Below are positions 304-18,468 of a stretch of DNA of 41,340 nucleotides, in pieces. Source of the DNA: Chloroflexota bacterium (GTDB lineage Bacteria > Chloroflexota > Anaerolineae > Anaerolineales > Villigracilaceae); the NCBI GenBank assembly GCA_021824575.1, contig JAKAKJ010000055.1:1-41340 (forward strand), given 5' to 3'. Below the pieces are notes generated by a model that was given only the letters and a program-made list of their open reading frames with translations, was not told where the DNA came from and ran no database searches. How positions within the stretch are numbered: the first letter of the stretch is position 1; the number at the start of each line of letters is the position of its first letter. The translations under genes were made by a program, and so were the position numbers.

Positions 304-897
304 ATGATCAAAAAGTTGTTCAATGTGCTGAACCAGCCACTGGGTCGGATCGGCATATTCATCATCGCGTTGGTGGTGCTTAGCGGCGCGGTTTGGGGCA
401 TCGCCCAGGCACAGAAACCGCCTCAACAGCCAATCCAATTTCCGCATAATTTGCATGTTCGATTAGGTATTCAATGTTTGTATTGTCATCCAGGCGCATT
501 GCGGGGACCATCGCCGGGCATTCCCACTGAAACAAAATGCTGGGGATGCCACCAGCAGATTGCGATCCAAGGCACGGAATTGCCGAAGCTCGCGGCTTAT
601 GTAAAGAATAATCAACCGATTGATTGGGTTCCGGTGGCGCAAGTGCCGGACTTTGTGCATTTCGTCCACCGCCCGCACATCGCCGCGGGCTTGAATTGCG
701 AAGACTGCCACGGCAATGTGAGCAACATGACTGTGTACCAGAATCCGCAGGTGATGAACATGGGTTGGTGCCTTAATTGTCATCGGGCAAAGACTGCGAA
801 CAATCCGCAGAACAATCCCACAAACGATCCGGCGGTTGCCGCGAAACTTGAAGCCTTGCGCGTCAAGCTGACGGATTGCAGTACCTGTCATTACTAG
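304..897 (+). CDS. actA: ActA, pentaheme cytochrome c subunit of alternative complex III
   Basis: This 197-residue protein has one N-terminal membrane helix (about residues 15-36) followed by five CXXCH heme-binding motifs: CLYCH 58, CWGCH 79, CEDCH 132, CLNCH 156 and CSTCH 192. Five hemes plus a single anchor, as the first gene of an act cluster, is the signature of ActA, which carries electrons from the iron-sulfur subunit towards the acceptor on the outer side of the membrane. Additional His residues (48, 51, 119, 122, 125) are available as distal ligands. The start is supported by GAGGAG five bases upstream. It is followed after 25 bases by the ActB N-half gene, so co-transcription is likely. 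Confidence 0.93.
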   Translation: MIKKLFNVLNQPLGRIGIFIIALVVLSGAVWGIAQAQKPPQQPIQFPHNLHVRLGIQCLYCHPGALRGPSPGIPTETKCWGCHQQIAIQGTELPKLAAYVKNNQPIDWVPVAQVPDFVHFVHRPHIAAGLNCEDCHGNVSNMTVYQNPQVMNMGWCLNCHRAKTANNPQNNPTNDPAVAAKLEALRVKLTDCSTCHY

Positions 898-922: not shown

Positions 923-3106
923 ATGGATAAAAAGATTTCCCGGCGTGACTTTTTGAAAGTGGCCGGTGTGGGTGCGGCGACAACCGCCGTGTTGACCGGC
1001 TGCGGCCCGGCATCGCGTTATGTGACGCGTCAGCCGTACACCAAAATGCCGGAATACACCTATAACGGTTTGAGCACTTATTACGCCACAACCTGCCGCG
1101 AATGTTCCGCAGGTTGTGGTTTGATTGTTCGGACGATGCAAGGCCGTGCCCTCAAAGCAGAGGGCAATCAAAACAACCCGGTCAATCTCGGAAAAACTTG
1201 TGCGCGCGGCCAAACGACTTTGGAGGGTTTGTACAATCCTGACCGCGTGACCGATCCAATCCAGCGTGACAGCCGCGGTTCGACAATTGCGAAAAAGATG
1301 GATTGGAATTCGGCAATCCAGGTGGTTGCAGATGCGCTGAGCAAGAACAAGCCCGATGAAATTGCATTCCTCATGGGATTAGCTCCCGATCATCTCTTTG
1401 ATTTGGTGACAGATCTGACCAAAGCCATTGGCGCGGCCGCCCCAATCCGTTTCGGCGCGCTGGGCATGTTCGAGGCGCGCGCGACGTTGGTGCAAGCCGC
1501 CAGCGACATGTTTGGTCAGGAAGGTTTGCCTTTCTTCGATATCGGCAATGCCGATTTGGTTTTTTCCTTCGGTGCGAATTTCCTGGAGACCTGGCTCTCG
1601 CCCGTGGCTCAGACGCGCGGATATTCCCAGTTGCGGCGCGGCAACCCAAACAGGCGCGGCTATTTTGTGCAGTTCGAGCCGCGCATATCGCAGACAGGCG
1701 CCAAAGCCGACGAGTGGATTCCGGTCAAGCCGGGAACCGAGGCGTTGGTCGTGCTGGCGATTGGCCGCCTTGTTGCGGAAGCAAATAATATTACGCTGCC
1801 CACGGCCTTTTCCAACGCGGATGTGAATGCCGCGGCCGCGGCGGCGGACGTGAGCGTGGATACGCTGAAACATTTGGCGAGTCTGTTTGCGAGCGCCAGA
1901 CGTCCATTGGCAATTCCGGGCGGCGCGGCGCTTGGAGAAAGCAATGGCTTGCAGACTGCAGATGCGGTGCTGGCGCTAAATGCTTTGGTTGGAAATATAG
2001 GCAAGGATGGCGGCGTGTTCCTTTCGCCGGTTGCGCCGCTGACCGATGCTTATCATCGCCCGGCGAATCTTAAGGAAATGTCGGACTTCGTTGACCTGCT
2101 GAAATCGGGCAAGATCAAAGTTTTATTTGTGCATGGTGTCAATCCTGTTTTTGAATTGCCCAAGTCGCTTGGACTCGAAGATGCAATGTCCAAAGTTTTG
2201 CAGATCATTTCATTTTCGAGCTTCCCGGATGAAACGGCACTGCAATCCGATTACGTTTTCCCTGATCATCATGGGCTCGAGTCGTGGGGATACCAAAAAG
2301 TCGCAACCGGCACAAGCTCGTCCGTGCTTTCGGGCGCGCAGCCGGTTATCGTTCCGTTCTTCAACACAAAGGCCACCGCGGATGTGCTATTGGCCGCCGC
2401 GCAAAAGATCGGCGGAACGCTGGCTTCGACTTTGAAATTCACGGATGAGCTTGCCTACATTCAAAGCAAACTCAGCACTTTGATTTCGGAGCCGGATGGT
2501 TTCTTCTCCGCACCGGAGATTAACACCTTTACAGCCTCTTTCCAGCAATATGGCGGCTGGTGGAAGACAACCGACAATCGCGTCGCGCCGTCAGCTGGTG
2601 ACGCGTTGAATAAAACATTCAACACGTCCGCAGCGCAATTCAACGGCGATGGCGATTATTTCTTCCTGCCGTTCGTTGCGCCGGTGATGGCGGAAGCCGG
2701 CGCAAATAAACCGCACTTGCAGGAAACTGCTGACCCGACCACGACTGTGATGTGGAATACATGGGTGGAGATCAATCCTGATACCGCCAAGCAATTGGGC
2801 ATTCAGGATGATGATGTGGTCTCCATCACATCCAGCGCGGGGACGGTGGAAGCCTCGGTTTATGTGTATCCGGCCATTCGTCCCGATACGATCGCCATGC
2901 CCTTTGGTCAGGGACATGCCGCTTACGGTCAATTCGCCCAGGGGCGCGGCGCCAATCCAGCGGACCTGTTGAGCAATTCCACCAACGAAGCAGGTGATCT
3001 TGCTTTTGCTTCGATGAAAGTCAGCGTGAAGAAGACTGGAAAGAAGCGCCAATTGTCCCGTTTGGAAGGCGTTCTTGGCGTTTATGGAAAATTTGGACAA
3101 CAGTAG
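923..3106 (+). CDS. actB: ActB N-terminal half: molybdopterin-oxidoreductase-like subunit of ACIII
   Basis: This 727-residue protein corresponds to the B1 domain of ActB. It begins with a twin-arginine signal (SRRDFLK) followed by a lipobox-like LTGC with Cys27, so it is probably exported folded and lipid-anchored. The body resembles the molybdopterin oxidoreductase fold (residues about 50-650) and includes the C-terminal dinucleotide-binding-like domain (WVEINPDTAKQLGIQDDD). In characterised ACIII this domain carries no molybdenum cofactor and is structural. Here a Cys58-x2-Cys61-x3-Cys65-x27-Cys93 pattern, typical of an N-terminal 4Fe-4S site, is kept. In other ACIII operons B1 is usually fused to the ferredoxin-like B2; here it ends at 3106 and B2 is a separate gene 12 bases later. 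Confidence 0.88.
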   Translation: MDKKISRRDFLKVAGVGAATTAVLTGCGPASRYVTRQPYTKMPEYTYNGLSTYYATTCRECSAGCGLIVRTMQGRALKAEGNQNNPVNLGKTCARGQTTLEGLYNPDRVTDPIQRDSRGSTIAKKMDWNSAIQVVADALSKNKPDEIAFLMGLAPDHLFDLVTDLTKAIGAAAPIRFGALGMFEARATLVQAASDMFGQEGLPFFDIGNADLVFSFGANFLETWLSPVAQTRGYSQLRRGNPNRRGYFVQFEPRISQTGAKADEWIPVKPGTEALVVLAIGRLVAEANNITLPTAFSNADVNAAAAAADVSVDTLKHLASLFASARRPLAIPGGAALGESNGLQTADAVLALNALVGNIGKDGGVFLSPVAPLTDAYHRPANLKEMSDFVDLLKSGKIKVLFVHGVNPVFELPKSLGLEDAMSKVLQIISFSSFPDETALQSDYVFPDHHGLESWGYQKVATGTSSSVLSGAQPVIVPFFNTKATADVLLAAAQKIGGTLASTLKFTDELAYIQSKLSTLISEPDGFFSAPEINTFTASFQQYGGWWKTTDNRVAPSAGDALNKTFNTSAAQFNGDGDYFFLPFVAPVMAEAGANKPHLQETADPTTTVMWNTWVEINPDTAKQLGIQDDDVVSITSSAGTVEASVYVYPAIRPDTIAMPFGQGHAAYGQFAQGRGANPADLLSNSTNEAGDLAFASMKVSVKKTGKKRQLSRLEGVLGVYGKFGQQ

Positions 3107-3118
3107 GAGAGAGAATTT

Positions 3119-3880
3119 ATGCCGAAGGAATTGAAGTCTCCCACAAGTAGCGCCAACACTGCACAGGATGTTCAAGGCATTTGGGGTATGGTTGTTGACC
3201 AGGATTTATGCACTGGATGTCAGGCTTGTGTTGCGGCATGTTCCATGGAAAACAACGTCCCGTTTGTCGGTGAAGTGGACGCTGGTTATGGCCGCTCGAT
3301 GCAGTGGATCCGCATTGAACGTTTCTGGCAGGGGAGCTATCCAAACATCAAAGCAACACCTTATCAACCGGTGATGTGCCAGAATTGTCATAACGCACCA
3401 TGCGAACCAGTCTGCCCGGTTTATGCTTCTGTTCACAGCCTCTCGGAAGATTTGAATTTGCAGGTGTATAACCGCTGTGTGGGCACGCGTTATTGTGCCA
3501 ACAACTGCCCGTATGAGGCGCGTGTGTTCAATTGGCGCGATTACATGGATCCGCGACAACGCCCAGAGTTGGTGACCCTCGCAAATCATTTCAATCCCGA
3601 TGTGACCGTACGCCGACGCGGCGTGATGGAAAAATGCACATTCTGCATCCAGCGTATTCGTCATGCGGAAGATACTGCGGCCTCCGAAAACCGCGACATT
3701 CGCGATGGTGAAGTAGTTCCAGCATGTGCACAGGCTTGCCCAGCAAGCGCCATCACATTTGGAAGAATTGATGACCCAACCACAAAGGTCAGTCAGGCGG
3801 CAGATACCAGCCGCGGCAGCCATTTGTTGGAAGAGCTCGGTACGATACCTCATGTAACTTACTTGGCGGGAGGAGCTTAA
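3119..3880 (+). CDS. actB: ActB C-terminal half: iron-sulfur (ferredoxin-like) subunit of ACIII
   Basis: This 253-residue protein carries four cysteine groups: 31/34/37/41, 87/90/95/99, 120/126/130 and 173/176/203/207. Fifteen cysteines fit three 4Fe-4S clusters plus one 3Fe-4S cluster, the set known for ActB; the three-Cys group (RCVGTRYC...C) is the likely 3Fe-4S contributor. No export signal is seen, so it probably travels with the Tat-exported partner encoded just upstream. It would pass electrons from the quinol site in ActC to the ActA hemes. The start has GGAGAGAG upstream, and the stop codon shares one base with the actC start. Confidence 0.9.
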   Translation: MPKELKSPTSSANTAQDVQGIWGMVVDQDLCTGCQACVAACSMENNVPFVGEVDAGYGRSMQWIRIERFWQGSYPNIKATPYQPVMCQNCHNAPCEPVCPVYASVHSLSEDLNLQVYNRCVGTRYCANNCPYEARVFNWRDYMDPRQRPELVTLANHFNPDVTVRRRGVMEKCTFCIQRIRHAEDTAASENRDIRDGEVVPACAQACPASAITFGRIDDPTTKVSQAADTSRGSHLLEELGTIPHVTYLAGGA

Positions 3881-5310
3881 TGAGCGCAATCGCAAAAGCA
3901 TTACCTAATCTTCGTCCGGAGGAAATGGAAGATCCAAAAGAGCATTTGATGCATGACCCGCTGCCACGCGGTGAAATGAACAGAATGGTGCTGGAGTCGA
4001 TGCATACTACCACATGGAAATATTGGACAGTTGTAACCATCCTTGCATTCCTCGTTGTGACCTGCCTGGGATATGCATGGTATTACCTGATCATGCAAGG
4101 CTTGGGCGTATCTGGCGACAACCGTCCTGTCTACTGGGGTGTCTTTCTGGTTAATTTTGTTTACTGGATCGGCATCAGCCACTCTGGCACACTGACTTCG
4201 GCGATTCTGCGTGTTTTGAAGATTGAGAGCAGACGCCCTTTCACACGCGTGGCGGAATTGATGACTGCCTTCGCCATAGTTAATGCGGGTCTCAGTATCT
4301 TCATGCACATGGGACGCGTCTGGCTCGCTTATTGGTTAATCCCGTATCCGAATGAACGCGGCATCTGGCCCGATTTTCACTCGCCGTTGATGTGGGATTT
4401 TATGGCGATCACCACGTACCTGATTTGCAGTTCGCTATATCTTTACCTGCCGCTCATCCCGGACCTGGCGATGGTACGTGACCGTTCCAAAGGCTGGGTC
4501 AAAACTTTCTACAAGATCTTCGCGATTGGTTTCCGCGGCACAGAAGGTGAGTGGAAGAATCTGCATCTGGCAATGAACATCTTTGCCTTTGCGATCATCC
4601 CGGTGGCGTTCTCAGTGCATACGATCGTGGCATGGGACTTTGCGATGGCAACCCGGCCTGGTTGGTCTTCTTCAGTCCTTGGACCATACTTTGTTGCCGG
4701 AGCTTTGCTATCGGGCGTGGCGGCAGTGCCGATTGTGCTTTTTTTCGTCCGCTCCACCATGAAGAACATGAAATACTTTCTTCGCCCGGAGCATTTTGAT
4801 ACGGTTGGCAAAATGCTGCTGATCATATCCATGGGCTGGGCTTATTTTTACTTCAACGATTACATCGTTCCGTGGTACGCAGGCGATAAATGGGAAAAGA
4901 TCTTGACTCTTTTTATTGAAGCTGGTCCGCAGGCGTGGCTGTGGTACCTAATGTTATTCTGTAACATCGTCGTGCCTTGGTCAGTTTTGTGGAGAAAGAA
5001 ATGGAGGCAGACACCCTGGCTGATGGCGATTGTCGGCATCCTGATCAATGTTGGCATGTATACCGAGCGCTACATCATCGTTCCCGAAATGTCGACGATC
5101 AACCGCATGCCCTTCACTTGGCACATCTATATTCCAAGAGTGGAAGTCATACTTACCATTGGAACCTTTGCCTTATTCCTTCTGCTTTACTTTGCAGCTT
5201 CAAGAATCCTCCCATTGATCCCCAACTGGGAAGTGCAGGAGGGGCAGGAAGGTCATATCCTGCGCAAAATCGGTAAAGCCAAGATTCCGACCATAAGTCA
5301 AATTGATTAA
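3880..5310 (+). CDS. actC: ActC, NrfD/PsrC-family quinol-oxidising membrane subunit of ACIII
   Basis: This 476-residue polytopic protein shows ten hydrophobic segments (starting near residues 48, 86, 121, 165, 228, 265, 308, 345, 380 and 420), as in the NrfD-like fold. It would bind menaquinol and hand electrons to the ActB iron-sulfur chain; ACIII is also thought to couple this to ion translocation through ActC. A cytoplasmic N-terminal extension of about 40 residues precedes the first helix. The start codon overlaps the previous stop by one base (TAATG). No second NrfD-like gene (ActF) is present in this operon, so this is the only quinol-type subunit visible. Confidence 0.92.
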   Translation: MSAIAKALPNLRPEEMEDPKEHLMHDPLPRGEMNRMVLESMHTTTWKYWTVVTILAFLVVTCLGYAWYYLIMQGLGVSGDNRPVYWGVFLVNFVYWIGISHSGTLTSAILRVLKIESRRPFTRVAELMTAFAIVNAGLSIFMHMGRVWLAYWLIPYPNERGIWPDFHSPLMWDFMAITTYLICSSLYLYLPLIPDLAMVRDRSKGWVKTFYKIFAIGFRGTEGEWKNLHLAMNIFAFAIIPVAFSVHTIVAWDFAMATRPGWSSSVLGPYFVAGALLSGVAAVPIVLFFVRSTMKNMKYFLRPEHFDTVGKMLLIISMGWAYFYFNDYIVPWYAGDKWEKILTLFIEAGPQAWLWYLMLFCNIVVPWSVLWRKKWRQTPWLMAIVGILINVGMYTERYIIVPEMSTINRMPFTWHIYIPRVEVILTIGTFALFLLLYFAASRILPLIPNWEVQEGQEGHILRKIGKAKIPTISQID

Positions 5311-5328
5311 GGCGGAAGGAGTTTATGA

Positions 5329-5853
5329 ATGTCTGATTCCAATACGCTTTTGGCAGTGTTCGAAGATATTGAACCTGCAGCCGATGGTATCGGCAAGCTG
5401 CATGAACTGGGTGTCGCAGATGAAAATATGGATGTTATTTCGGGCATCCCGATCAGACCAGCCATTTTGGAACGTCCATCAGCCGTTACCCGCGTTGGCT
5501 GGATCGCATTGGCAGGCGCGATCCTTGGATTGCTATTGGCTGTCTTCTTCGTTTGGGGAATACCCTATTTATTTCCCCTGGATGCCGGCGGACAGCCGAT
5601 CTACCCTGTGCCGCAGCTGTTGATCATTATGTTTGAGATGACCATGCTTGGCTTAATGGGCTTCGCCTTCCTTGGCATGTTGGTGGATAGCGGCATTCCC
5701 TCTTATACTCCGAAAGAATATGTTCCTGAGATCAGTGATGGCAGAATCGCTGTATTGTTCAGTTGTCCAAAAGAGGAGCAAAGGAAATTTGTGGATGCGC
5801 TGACAAAATTGGGCGCTAAATCTGTGGAGCCTGCGGAGGCGCGTCAACTATGA
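5329..5853 (+). CDS. actD: ActD, DUF3341-type membrane subunit of ACIII
   Basis: This 174-residue protein has a cytoplasmic alpha/beta domain (residues 1-50, opening SDSNTLLAVFEDIEPAADG), two membrane helices (about 58-85 and 95-120, joined by a short outside loop), and a C-terminal cytoplasmic segment. Length, topology and position between actC and the cytochrome gene match ActD, whose role in ACIII is structural. The ATG at 5329 is chosen because GGAAGGAG lies 8 bases upstream; an overlapping ORF starting at 5303 in another frame lacks this support. The stop overlaps the next start by four bases (ATGA), indicating translational coupling. Confidence 0.88.
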   Translation: MSDSNTLLAVFEDIEPAADGIGKLHELGVADENMDVISGIPIRPAILERPSAVTRVGWIALAGAILGLLLAVFFVWGIPYLFPLDAGGQPIYPVPQLLIIMFEMTMLGLMGFAFLGMLVDSGIPSYTPKEYVPEISDGRIAVLFSCPKEEQRKFVDALTKLGAKSVEPAEARQL

Positions 5854-6878
5854 GCACGAGTTGGAACGTAATTCTCAAACGGTTGGGAATCGTAGCAGTC
5901 GTTGTGCTCGTGCTCTTTGGGGTCGTGGAATTATTTGCTTACGATGTGATAAAGATTCAATTCGTCAGCTTCATGGCGATTTCGCCGGCCATGCAGCCGA
6001 TGGAGAACCCGCTTCCCGTCCCGTCGCAGTCAATTCCGATTGAGGGACCAGCTTACATTCCGAACATGGGCGCGCCAAAGAACCCCGTCCCAGCGGATCA
6101 AGTTTCGATCGCGCGCGGCGCTGAATTGTTTCATATCAACTGCACCGCCTGTCACGGCGAAGATGCCAAGGGTGATGGGCCAGTCGCTCCGTTCCTGCAA
6201 AAGCAGAAGCCAGCCGATCTGACCAGCCCCACAGTCCAGTTCTTGAGCGATGGCGCAATCTTCATGGTGATCTCTAATGGGTTCGGCATGATGCCACCGC
6301 TTAACGAAAACCTGACGGTGCGCGAGCGGTGGGATGTGGTTAACTTTCTACGAACCCTTTCAAATTCATCTTCAAGTGCAGCCGCACCGACAGCAACATC
6401 CTCGACGGGTTCGTCTCCAACGCCGACAGTTTCGGGCGCGTCAGCAACTGCAACACCAGCAACTGCTGCGACTTCTTCTTCTCAAACCGAACCGGAAGCA
6501 ACCGAAGAAGTAGCGCGTCCATCGAATCCCGGTGGACCGGGTGATGCAATCAATTTGACCGGTGATCCGAATTCAGGGGCGCAGATTTTTGCGAACAATT
6601 GTCAAACTTGCCATAACGCTCAAGGCAAAGGCGGAATTCCCAATCCGGGTTCGAGTGATGGAACATTTCCATCCCTCAACCCGATTGATCCGACCATCAA
6701 AAATTCAGATCTCAAGACATTCGCATATAACCTTGATTTGTTCATCCAACATGGTTCTACACCCGAGTCGCTACCAGGGGCTGCCCCAACGTCAATGCCT
6801 GCCTGGGGTGACAAGAATGCCCTGACACAGCAGCAGATTGCGGATGTGATTGCATACATCATCAGTTTGAATCCTTAA
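5850..6878 (+). CDS. actE: ActE-like diheme cytochrome c (two monoheme domains)
   Basis: This 342-residue membrane-anchored protein has a helix at about 10-32. Domain 1 (about 83-172) has heme motif CTACH at 98 and a plausible Met ligand in FGMMPP. It is joined by a Ser/Thr/Ala/Pro linker of about 50 residues to domain 2 (about 223-342), with heme motif CQTCH at 251 and Met in SMPAWGD. Canonical ActE is a single-heme subunit corresponding to domain 1. Domain 2 belongs to the same subfamily as the three domains in the next gene and shares the conserved frame RPSNPGGPG...IADVIAYIISLNP. The fusion looks like a wired extension of the electron exit path. It overlaps actD by four bases. Confidence 0.85.
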   Translation: MSTSWNVILKRLGIVAVVVLVLFGVVELFAYDVIKIQFVSFMAISPAMQPMENPLPVPSQSIPIEGPAYIPNMGAPKNPVPADQVSIARGAELFHINCTACHGEDAKGDGPVAPFLQKQKPADLTSPTVQFLSDGAIFMVISNGFGMMPPLNENLTVRERWDVVNFLRTLSNSSSSAAAPTATSSTGSSPTPTVSGASATATPATAATSSSQTEPEATEEVARPSNPGGPGDAINLTGDPNSGAQIFANNCQTCHNAQGKGGIPNPGSSDGTFPSLNPIDPTIKNSDLKTFAYNLDLFIQHGSTPESLPGAAPTSMPAWGDKNALTQQQIADVIAYIISLNP

Positions 6879-8440
6879 AGTAGGAAGATATCATGGATGA
6901 TTTTCGCAAAATACTTTACGCCGTTGTCATCGGGTTTATTGTTGTAATCGTTGGATGGGTTTCGTTCGTCACTTTTTCAGGATGTGGTTTGTCTCTGAAC
7001 AATTGCAATGCCGCTACGATAAAAGTGGAACGAACTTCGATTCCAACATTGATTCCGGCGACGCTTCCAGCGCAGGTCCGCTTTCTTGGCGCGACTGCAA
7101 CGGTTATTTCCACGGCAACCACGCCAACAACCGAAGCGACCGCCTCGGCTTCCGGTGAAACTGAAACAGAGAATACTGTCGCGCGTCCATCCAACCCGGG
7201 CGGGCCGGGACCAGCTATTGGTTTAACGGGCGATCCGGTTTCGGGCGCGCAAATCTTCGCGACCAATTGCCAGATTTGTCATAACACGCAAGGCACCGGC
7301 GGAATTCCCAATCCGGGTTCGACCGATGGCTCGATCCCATCCCTCAATCCGATTGACCCAACCATCGCAAATGCCGACTACAAAACGTTTGCCACGAACA
7401 TTGACTTGTTCGTAGAGCATGGTTCGCGACCCGAAGGCGTCAACCCGACGTTCTCCATGCCTGCCTGGGGCGATTTGAAAAAGCTCACGCCACAGCAGAT
7501 TGCAGATGTGATCTCATATATCATTAGTCTAAATCCTGTTTCGACGACGGCCGCATCTGCAACGGAAGCGCCGACGCCAATCGGCGGCGTGGACATTGCG
7601 CGCCCATCGAATCCCGGCGGTCCCGGTGATGCAATCAACCTGACAGGCAACCCAACTTCCGGCGCGCAGATTTTCTCTCAAAATTGCGTGTCTTGTCATA
7701 ATACAGAAGGCACAGGCGGAGTTCCCAATCCCGGTTCGGATGATGGAACCATCCCGCCGCTGAATCCGATTGACCAAACCATGGTCAGTTCGGACTATAA
7801 GACTTTCGCGTTCAATATAGATTTGTTCGTTCAACATGGATCAACGCCATCTGGTCCCAGCCCAACGTTCTCCATGCCAGCCTGGGGCGACTCCGGAAAG
7901 TTGACACAGCAGCAAATCGCAGATGTGATTGCTTACATTATCAGTTTGAATCCTGTTTCACCCTCAGCAACAGAAGCACCATCCAGCGCTTCGGGGACCA
8001 CAACGCCGGCGGCTTCCGCACCGACGACAGCACCTGCCGCTACAGCTACACTCACCGCAGCTGCGCCTGCATCTTCGGGCGTGCCGCGCCCATCCAATCC
8101 CGGTGGGCCAGGCGATGCGGTCAATCTGACCGGCGATGCGAATTCGGGCGCGCAGATATTTGCCCAGAATTGTGTGCCATGTCATAACACGGCGGGCAAA
8201 GGCGGAAATCCGAACCCCGGCTCGGATGCTGGGACGATCCCGGCGTTGAACCCGATCAACCCGGCATTGAAGAGTTCAGATCATCTGACCTTCGTAACAA
8301 ATCTCGATCTGTTCATTCAGCATGGTTCCACGCCGGCGGGCCCCGGCCCAACGTTCTCGATGCCTGCGTGGGGCGATAAGAACGCGCTGACGCAGCAACA
8401 GATTGCAGATGTGATCGCGTACATCATCAGTTTGAATCCA
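6516..8440 (+). repeat. Four direct repeats of one cytochrome c domain across two genes
   Basis: The same domain of about 118 codons occurs at about 6516-6875, 7184-7537, 7601-7954 and 8087-8440. Each copy starts RPSNPGGPG, has a heme motif about 28 residues in, a PNPGS..DG loop, SMPAWGD with the probable Met ligand, and ends YIISLNP. Copies are separated by low-complexity linkers rich in Ser, Thr, Pro and Ala. Similarity extends to the DNA, suggesting fairly recent duplication or homogenisation by gene conversion. Confidence 0.85.
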
Positions 8441-8443
8441 TAA
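6893..8443 (+). CDS. Triheme cytochrome c built of three tandem monoheme domains
   Basis: This 516-residue protein has an N-terminal membrane helix (about 7-28) and a Thr/Ala-rich stalk, then three near-copies of one cytochrome c domain at 98-215, 237-354 and 399-516. Heme motifs are CQICH 126, CVSCH 265 and CVPCH 427; each domain has a Met in SMPAWGD as the probable distal ligand. It starts 14 bases after the actE-like gene and closes the operon. By context it should accept electrons from ACIII and may act as a tethered multi-heme relay to a terminal oxidase, replacing a soluble cytochrome c or blue copper protein. That role is inferred. I do not recognise an established gene name. Confidence 0.85.
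   Translation: MDDFRKILYAVVIGFIVVIVGWVSFVTFSGCGLSLNNCNAATIKVERTSIPTLIPATLPAQVRFLGATATVISTATTPTTEATASASGETETENTVARPSNPGGPGPAIGLTGDPVSGAQIFATNCQICHNTQGTGGIPNPGSTDGSIPSLNPIDPTIANADYKTFATNIDLFVEHGSRPEGVNPTFSMPAWGDLKKLTPQQIADVISYIISLNPVSTTAASATEAPTPIGGVDIARPSNPGGPGDAINLTGNPTSGAQIFSQNCVSCHNTEGTGGVPNPGSDDGTIPPLNPIDQTMVSSDYKTFAFNIDLFVQHGSTPSGPSPTFSMPAWGDSGKLTQQQIADVIAYIISLNPVSPSATEAPSSASGTTTPAASAPTTAPAATATLTAAAPASSGVPRPSNPGGPGDAVNLTGDANSGAQIFAQNCVPCHNTAGKGGNPNPGSDAGTIPALNPINPALKSSDHLTFVTNLDLFIQHGSTPAGPGPTFSMPAWGDKNALTQQQIADVIAYIISLNP

Positions 8444-16782: not shown

Positions 16783-18468
<1,686 letters not shown>

Follow-up and report, generated by a model that had tools for sequence, protein, structure and literature searches.

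The alternative complexes III (ACIII) of Rhodothermus marinus, Flavobacterium johnsoniae, and Roseiflexus castenholzii share with the locus analyzed here a pentaheme ActA, the ActB parts, an NrfD-type ActC, ActD, and the ActE core. How ACIII hands on its electrons is unsettled. In R. marinus, ActE has been proposed to pass electrons straight to caa3 (passages of PMC5928083), and auracyanin, HiPIP, or direct contact has been suggested as the route to the acceptor in other species (passages of PMC8552683). The latter passages describe ActE of F. johnsoniae as dispensable for reducing its oxidase and place a sixth heme of its ActA on an N-terminal mobile membrane-anchored domain, which was proposed to shuttle to the oxidase. 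This sixth heme is an exception to the canonical arrangement of a pentaheme ActA and a monoheme ActE, which an earlier note on the present DNA had taken as its reference. Clusters of C. aurantiacus have been described with ActG, an uncharacterized protein (passages of PMC3150298).

An ACIII-type operon with four copies of one cytochrome c module

The window (the whole stretch of DNA that was analyzed, 41,340 bases) is an entire contig, C3, of the 3.64-Mbp, 98.2% complete genome of an uncultured Chloroflexota bacterium. The act genes and the gene following them contain these features:

304..897, + strand: ActA, pentaheme cytochrome c (5 CxxCH; PF14522; QrcA match below cut-off)
923..3106, + strand: ActB1, molybdopterin-oxidoreductase-like, with TAT signal (PF00384, PF01568, PF04879, PF10518)
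3119..3880, + strand: ActB2, 4Fe-4S subunit (PF12838, PF13247; one CxxCH in Fe-S motif, by eye)
3880..5310, + strand: ActC, NrfD-like membrane subunit (PF03916)
5329..5853, + strand: ActD (PF11821 ActD, 92 bits versus a cut-off of 25.7)
5850..6878, + strand: ActE, diheme; N-terminal anchor, canonical ActE heme domain, linker, and extra module (2 CxxCH; ActE-chain matches)
6516..6875, + strand: cytochrome c module 4, at the ActE C terminus (PF00034/PF13442)
6893..8443, + strand: anchored triheme slot protein, 516 amino acids (3 CxxCH; anchor homologous to a family-wide putative slot subunit)
6893..7081, + strand: N-terminal membrane anchor and RTxIPTLxPATLPA stretch ("socket") of the triheme protein (homology to ~220–amino acid slot proteins of the family)
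7184..7537, + strand: cytochrome c module 1 of the triheme protein (repeat alignment)
7601..7954, + strand: cytochrome c module 2 of the triheme protein (repeat alignment)
8087..8440, + strand: cytochrome c module 3 of the triheme protein (nearest relative, the single module of genome G001)

ActA has the five CxxCH motifs of a pentaheme subunit and, by eye, a single N-terminal membrane segment. MopB-like and 4Fe-4S parts of ActB are present but split over two adjacent genes. The ActC frame matches the NrfD family, and the ActD frame exceeds the cut-off of a family that is seemingly restricted to ACIII (passages of PMC5928083). The ActE core matches the ACIII chains 6f0k_E, 6btm_E, and 6lod_E, the extra module standing besides. 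Scores against the Qrc profiles stayed below their cut-offs (80 versus 180 bits for QrcA, 314 versus 440 for QrcB, 209 versus 400 for QrcC, and 21 versus 570 for QrcD). ActF, the second NrfD-like subunit, was found beside the act genes neither in the window, where just 303 bases precede ActA and a very divergent ActF could escape, nor in the related loci compared; three further NrfD matches of the source genome belong to different gene clusters on other contigs. We call the cluster "ACIII-type" since no ActF was found beside the act genes, although published clusters without ActF exist, such as the Cr operon of C. aurantiacus (passages of PMC3150298). Loci L050, L074, L072, and L051 have the same gene order, with split ActB and missing ActF, as does L059 except that its ActE frame is overlaid by the ORF picker.

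The count of ten c-type hemes made in the earlier note was reproduced: CxxCH motifs number five in ActA, two in ActE, and three in the triheme protein, and Pfam recognizes two and three class I cytochrome c domains in the latter two. One additional CxxCH string in ActB2 was left out because it is part of the 4Fe-4S cysteine motif. Downstream of the triheme gene lie genes for a histidine kinase and a response regulator in the opposite orientation.

The same note had placed four near-copies of one cytochrome c domain at 6516–8440, in ActE and the gene directly following it, and these coordinates proved exact. The domain, hereafter the module, is ~118 amino acids long, starts with RPSNPGGPG and ends with YIISLNP in each copy, and belongs to class I cytochromes c by its PF00034/PF13442 match, CxxCH motif, and distal invariant Met, the putative heme ligand. 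CxxCH and one Met are present in all 68 gathered module rows (61 distinct). The four modules are 69.5 to 80.3% identical in protein and 66.9 to 75.2% in DNA, and chance similarity is excluded by tblastn of the ActE module against the other three (E 2e-56 to 4e-56). Between them, NG86 dS is 1.6 to 4.2 and dN 0.13 to 0.24; they are therefore old duplicates under purifying selection. The repeats are real, and only the wording "near-copies" was slightly strong. Identity to the ActE core heme domain is just 27 to 32%. In the PDB, the module profile matches the CcoP–cytochrome cy fusion 6xkx best; CcoP chains and chains named "cytochrome bc1 complex cytochrome c subunit" come next.

The Ser/Thr/Pro linkers reported earlier are also borne out. 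In the triheme protein, Ser/Thr/Pro/Ala-rich stretches of 66 amino acids (53% of these residues) behind the anchor, then 21 (62%) and 44 (86%) amino acids, separate the domains, and 51 amino acids (80%) precede the extra module of ActE. The triheme anchor is predicted as a helix at residues 2 to 31 (pLDDT ~80). Both AF2 predictions were of poor quality (mean pLDDT 48.6 and 41.8); the one for the triheme protein shows no more than an N-terminal helix and a like helix pattern in each module.

One other genome of the genus, G003 (locus L050), has the identical layout of three modules plus one, and the array is therefore no assembly accident. A recent tandem duplication or assembly repeat is ruled out by this second array together with the dS values. 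Among 119 clusters with a complete ActE, the diheme form occurs in these two only. In the module tree, the ActE modules of the window and G003 pair with bootstrap/SH-aLRT support of 99/91 and their modules 1 with 100/97; their modules 2 fall into one group with weaker support. Module 3 of the window pairs with the only module of G001 (100/98), not with that of G003. Position-matched modules of the window and G003 differ by dN 0.05 to 0.12 and dS 0.83 to 1.47, as under purifying selection.

The window also holds an actC-actD mosaic at 3904–6003. Nucleotide identity to L050 (G003) is 83 to 91% up to ~3.9 kb, 70 to 78% at 3.9 to 6.0 kb, and 82 to 87% up to 6.9 kb; identity to L051 (G001) is 88 to 94% at 3.9 to 5.7 kb and 68 to 82% before. 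Probably either actC-actD was exchanged between members of the genus by homologous recombination or the assembly is chimeric. Elsewhere in the window, AtpA (16804–18468) has 554 amino acids, its usual length being near 503. By eye there is an apparent insertion of ~50 amino acids near residues 302 to 310, about where many other models of the family are interrupted.

The slot after actE across the family

The earlier note regarded the triheme gene as an additional gene. When 61 genomes were searched, the first ~60 residues of its product matched a ~220–amino acid protein encoded directly after actE in other genera, and its heme modules had no match there. This protein combines a single membrane anchor with a conserved RTPIPTLxPATLPA stretch and a CxxCH domain that has two additional invariant Cys and no Met conserved above 80% (97 copies). 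One representative had no Pfam or NCBIfam match, and the sole PDB match of the domain up to E 1 was FoxE (5MAB; E 7.8e-8, residues 105 to 183). A blue-copper cargo had been considered for the ~220–amino acid proteins and was ruled out by the CxxCH motif, the lack of a Pfam family, and the FoxE match. A phylum-wide profile search of 400 genomes matched 23, of which 22 belong to the family. Every match starting at position 1 or 2 is part of an act cluster, with a single one in each genome except G419, which has two; partial matches (start positions 11 to 86) occur elsewhere in five genomes. FoxE-like domains also stand in tandem away from act genes at G007:C7:8819-10765 (four in a 685–amino acid frame), G134:C53:38499-39766, and G034:C147:22287-23204.

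To survey the slot, act clusters were collected by their ActD match, found in 119 of 152 family genomes; the control gave a match in 1 of 14 genomes. The 120 matches above the cut-off (the below-cut-off match G035:C42 was left out) gave 120 clusters: 114 fetched ones, the window, and five other loci. A same-strand anchor gene lies 0 to 298 bp (median, 19) after actE in 119 of these, the remaining one being cut by a contig end. The slot could be read in 117 clusters; not counted were G024, where it is masked by N, and two loci at contig ends, G526 and the first of G491. The old FoxE-like domain alone occupies 97 slots and the module is present in 20, as follows:

Module alone in the slot: one copy, 11 clusters; two copies, 1 (G005); three copies, 2 (the window and G003)
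Module fused behind the old domain: one copy, 3 clusters (G033, G490, G483); two copies, 1 (G487)
Module and old domain as separate genes: 2 clusters (G419, G531)

In the last two, the module gene starts 13 to 19 bp after actE and the old-domain gene 1.0 to 2.9 kb after it. Six of the 97 old-domain slots lack the heme region, and a scan of every frame over the following 1.2 kb revealed no CxxCH; in these loci (L202, L125, L140, L141, L139, L195), the anchor and the flanks of the old domain are kept and the heme-binding stretch is gone. Across the family, the number of hemes in the slot thus ranges from zero to three, and they belong to two unrelated kinds.

The interpretation given in the earlier note is partly supported and can be widened. 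Rather than having been added to the operon, the triheme gene stands at the extreme of the states taken by an anchored, exchangeable exit component, presumably a subunit. Its product is a cargo-swapped form of the family-wide slot protein, which usually carries the other, single heme domain. That the triheme gene might regularly occur away from act genes, named in the earlier note as evidence against its proposal, did not come true: both anchored triheme genes found (window and G003) adjoin actE.

Proposed electron exit and probable acceptor

With moderate confidence, we favor the reading that the triheme protein is an anchored electron-exit subunit of ACIII with exchangeable heme cargo, whose modules would serve as captive, mutually independent carriers from ActE to caa3. 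The anatomy, the homologous anchor, the different cargo, duplication, purifying selection, and recurrence of the array in a second genome are seen in the sequences; subunit status and the carrier role are inferred. The purpose-built relay of the earlier note and captive independent carriers look alike in sequence, and no specific evidence points to export to external acceptors. On the favored reading, the old FoxE-like heme domain gave way in this genus to a His/Met class I module similar to a free lipoprotein cytochrome. Duplication then brought the slot to three modules, and ActE gained a fourth on a like linker. Menaquinol would be oxidized at ActC/ActB, and electrons would pass through the Fe-S clusters of ActB and the hemes of ActA to the ActE core heme. 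From there the modules, swinging on their flexible linkers, would pick them up and deliver them to the heme c domain in subunit II of the caa3 oxidase. The multiplication of modules would probably serve a higher local carrier concentration and greater reach without a soluble carrier.

The source genome encodes one COX1 over the cut-off, together with SCO, COX3, and a COX2 bearing a C-terminal heme c, on a different contig from the act operon. A COX2 homolog occurs in 112 of the 119 ACIII genomes but in just 10 of the other 33 (Fisher P = 1e-13); among ACIII genomes, 19 of the 20 with modules and 93 of the 99 others have it. Since caa3 accompanies ACIII irrespective of modules, this distribution names the likely acceptor and leaves the multiplication of the array unexplained. 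Slot modules are acidic (median pI 4.7, 26 distinct) and the COX2 heme c domain is weakly basic (pI 8.0); as a guide to docking, pI is rough, and the ActE core (median pI 4.8) and most modules outside ACIII are likewise acidic. Two points bear on the need for this route. The six heme-less slot proteins mean that the slot heme is dispensable in some relatives, and since F. johnsoniae ActE is dispensable for oxidase reduction, the exit route may bypass ActE. At G433:C54:44261-46404, a partial old-slot match (45844-46404, + strand) lies ~0.6 kb from a caa3 COX2 gene (44261-45259, − strand), possibly a second link of the FoxE-like heme domain to an oxidase.

Instead of serving the oxidase, the array could feed a second partner, such as multiheme cytochromes or reductases in the periplasm. 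The source genome does contain multiheme gene clusters (L264:763-10487) with 7 to 10 CxxCH per protein and an octaheme protein (L266:8869-11681), weakly ExtM-like below the cut-off, beside cytochrome b and Rieske genes, and a path split at ActE was proposed for F. johnsoniae (passages of PMC8552683). However, both clusters lie on other contigs than the act operon, and together with the strong co-occurrence of caa3 and ACIII this makes a branch unlikely in our judgment.

Proposed cargo exchange, the module outside ACIII, and known systems

The minimum number of changes in module state was 12 on the ActC tree, 10 on the ActD tree, and 8 on the ActE tree, versus ~19 each with shuffled labels; the concatenation (minus two cut-off rows) gave 9 and the anchor tree 11, both without shuffles. 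Single-gene trees were made too because the apparent recombination in the window disturbs the ActC/D/E tree. These quick-method trees yield minimum changes without direction, and counting the changes as gains was dropped for this reason. By this estimate, the module state changed at least 8 to 12 times, depending on the tree.

Nearest anchors were compared for 6 of the 20 module-bearing genomes. For G419 and G506, the closest relatives of the module-bearing anchor are old-domain anchors from different genomes, suggesting that the anchor stayed in place while its cargo was exchanged; the module anchor of G531 is only 56% like its nearest, G467 pairs with G468, and the window pairs with G003. 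In the weakly resolved module tree, built from the 68 rows with 16 of 58 branches starred (rows of up to 100 bits and the duplicate loci L009, L010, L039, L040, and L053 were left out), one loose group unites 27 of the 35 ACIII rows (24 of the 28 distinct ones). This grouping speaks against many independent captures; probably modules also passed from one act cluster to another, or lineages lost genes from an old two-gene state.

In its full form, the second of these options holds that an ancestral cluster had both an old-domain and a module gene, which were lost differentially, and that copy number drifted with little functional meaning. G419 and G531 hold both genes, and the one module-tree group and the labile copy number would fit such a history. 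It agrees poorly with the old-domain-plus-module fusions in three genera (G033, G490, and G483/G487), with the affinity of the G506 and G419 module anchors to old-domain anchors of other genomes, and with the strong purifying selection on each module, and we consider it improbable as the main explanation. Least probable by our estimate, and very doubtful, is a fixed wire in which modules pack with each other and ActE in set order for long-distance conduction by close heme contact: four hemes are linked and module positions partly correspond between two genomes, but the domains are separated by low-complexity linkers of 21 to 51 amino acids, copy number is one, two, or three within one genus, and AF2 (in a poor model) places long low-confidence stretches between modules.

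Captive carriers exchanged behind a constant anchor remain our preferred reading. The module itself is not specific to ACIII. A scan of named genomes (39 loci) found it as a free lipoprotein-like monoheme cytochrome, for example, in Anaerolinea thermolimosa (L084), and as the C-terminal part of ~650– to 770–amino acid proteins in Nitrospirae and Bacteroidetes records. It also occurs in tandem behind the anchored diheme cytochrome of bc-type complexes (L069, L054, L067). The cytochrome at L069:3732-6140 has six hemes, four of them in modules on Thr/Pro/Ala-rich linkers, and its neighbors by Pfam are cytochrome b, whose C-terminal match is just under the cut-off, and Rieske; L067:4096-5598 has two modules behind the diheme part, and by eye the gene order of L054 and L067 is like that of L069. 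A 576-base stretch with a free module is identical in L052 and L053, whose records bear the titles Herpetosiphonaceae and Gammaproteobacteria, probably through misbinning.

Within the family, the module was found in 27 of 152 genomes at E 1e-12. Seven of these have it without act linkage (152– to 174–amino acid frames in G438, G540, and G017; a fragment in G529; 565– to 579–amino acid frames in G495 to G497), and none of the seven carries an act-linked copy, in numbers too small for a test. The idea that the module is the family's general free carrier, replaced by fusion, finds no support in this sparse occurrence.

The parallel arrays in bc complexes suggest that tethering several carriers to a complex may be a solution of general use. 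As a broader and more tentative proposal, which we would rate somewhat short of even, Chloroflexota may keep the ACIII anchor as a socket and repeatedly exchange, multiply, or delete its heme cargo, the same soluble-type module having been taken up in tandem copies by ACIII as well as bc, the two unrelated classes of quinol:cytochrome c oxidoreductase. A diffusible carrier would thereby become a dose-adjustable tethered array. A constant anchor with zero to three hemes of two unrelated kinds amounts to a natural comparative experiment, and the comparison bears on the need for soluble carriers, the useful number of carriers, and the requirements for an exit heme. In the open-access literature searched, no ACIII was seen with a multicopy tethered module, a precedent that the earlier note said would refute its proposal, or with an exchangeable slot subunit.

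Captive cytochrome c domains replace a soluble carrier in cytochrome cy and in the cytochrome c subunits of bc1-oxidase supercomplexes. These are captive carriers like those proposed here, but have no ACIII link and fewer copies. FoxE, a diheme Fe(II) oxidase, differs from the old slot domain, which is monoheme, anchored, linked to ACIII, and outside any Pfam family; the hemes of FoxE have Met ligands (passages of PMC10654088), whereas the slot domain has no Met conserved above 80%. Compared with the described ACIII, the window cluster has a split ActB, no ActF that was found, an extra anchored slot component, and an extra ActE module. It resembles the F. johnsoniae complex, as passages of PMC8552683 portray it, in adding a tethered mobile heme domain to ACIII, but F. 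johnsoniae has one such domain on ActA, whereas the window has four copies of one module on ActE and the putative slot subunit, and the slot of its relatives carries between zero and three hemes.
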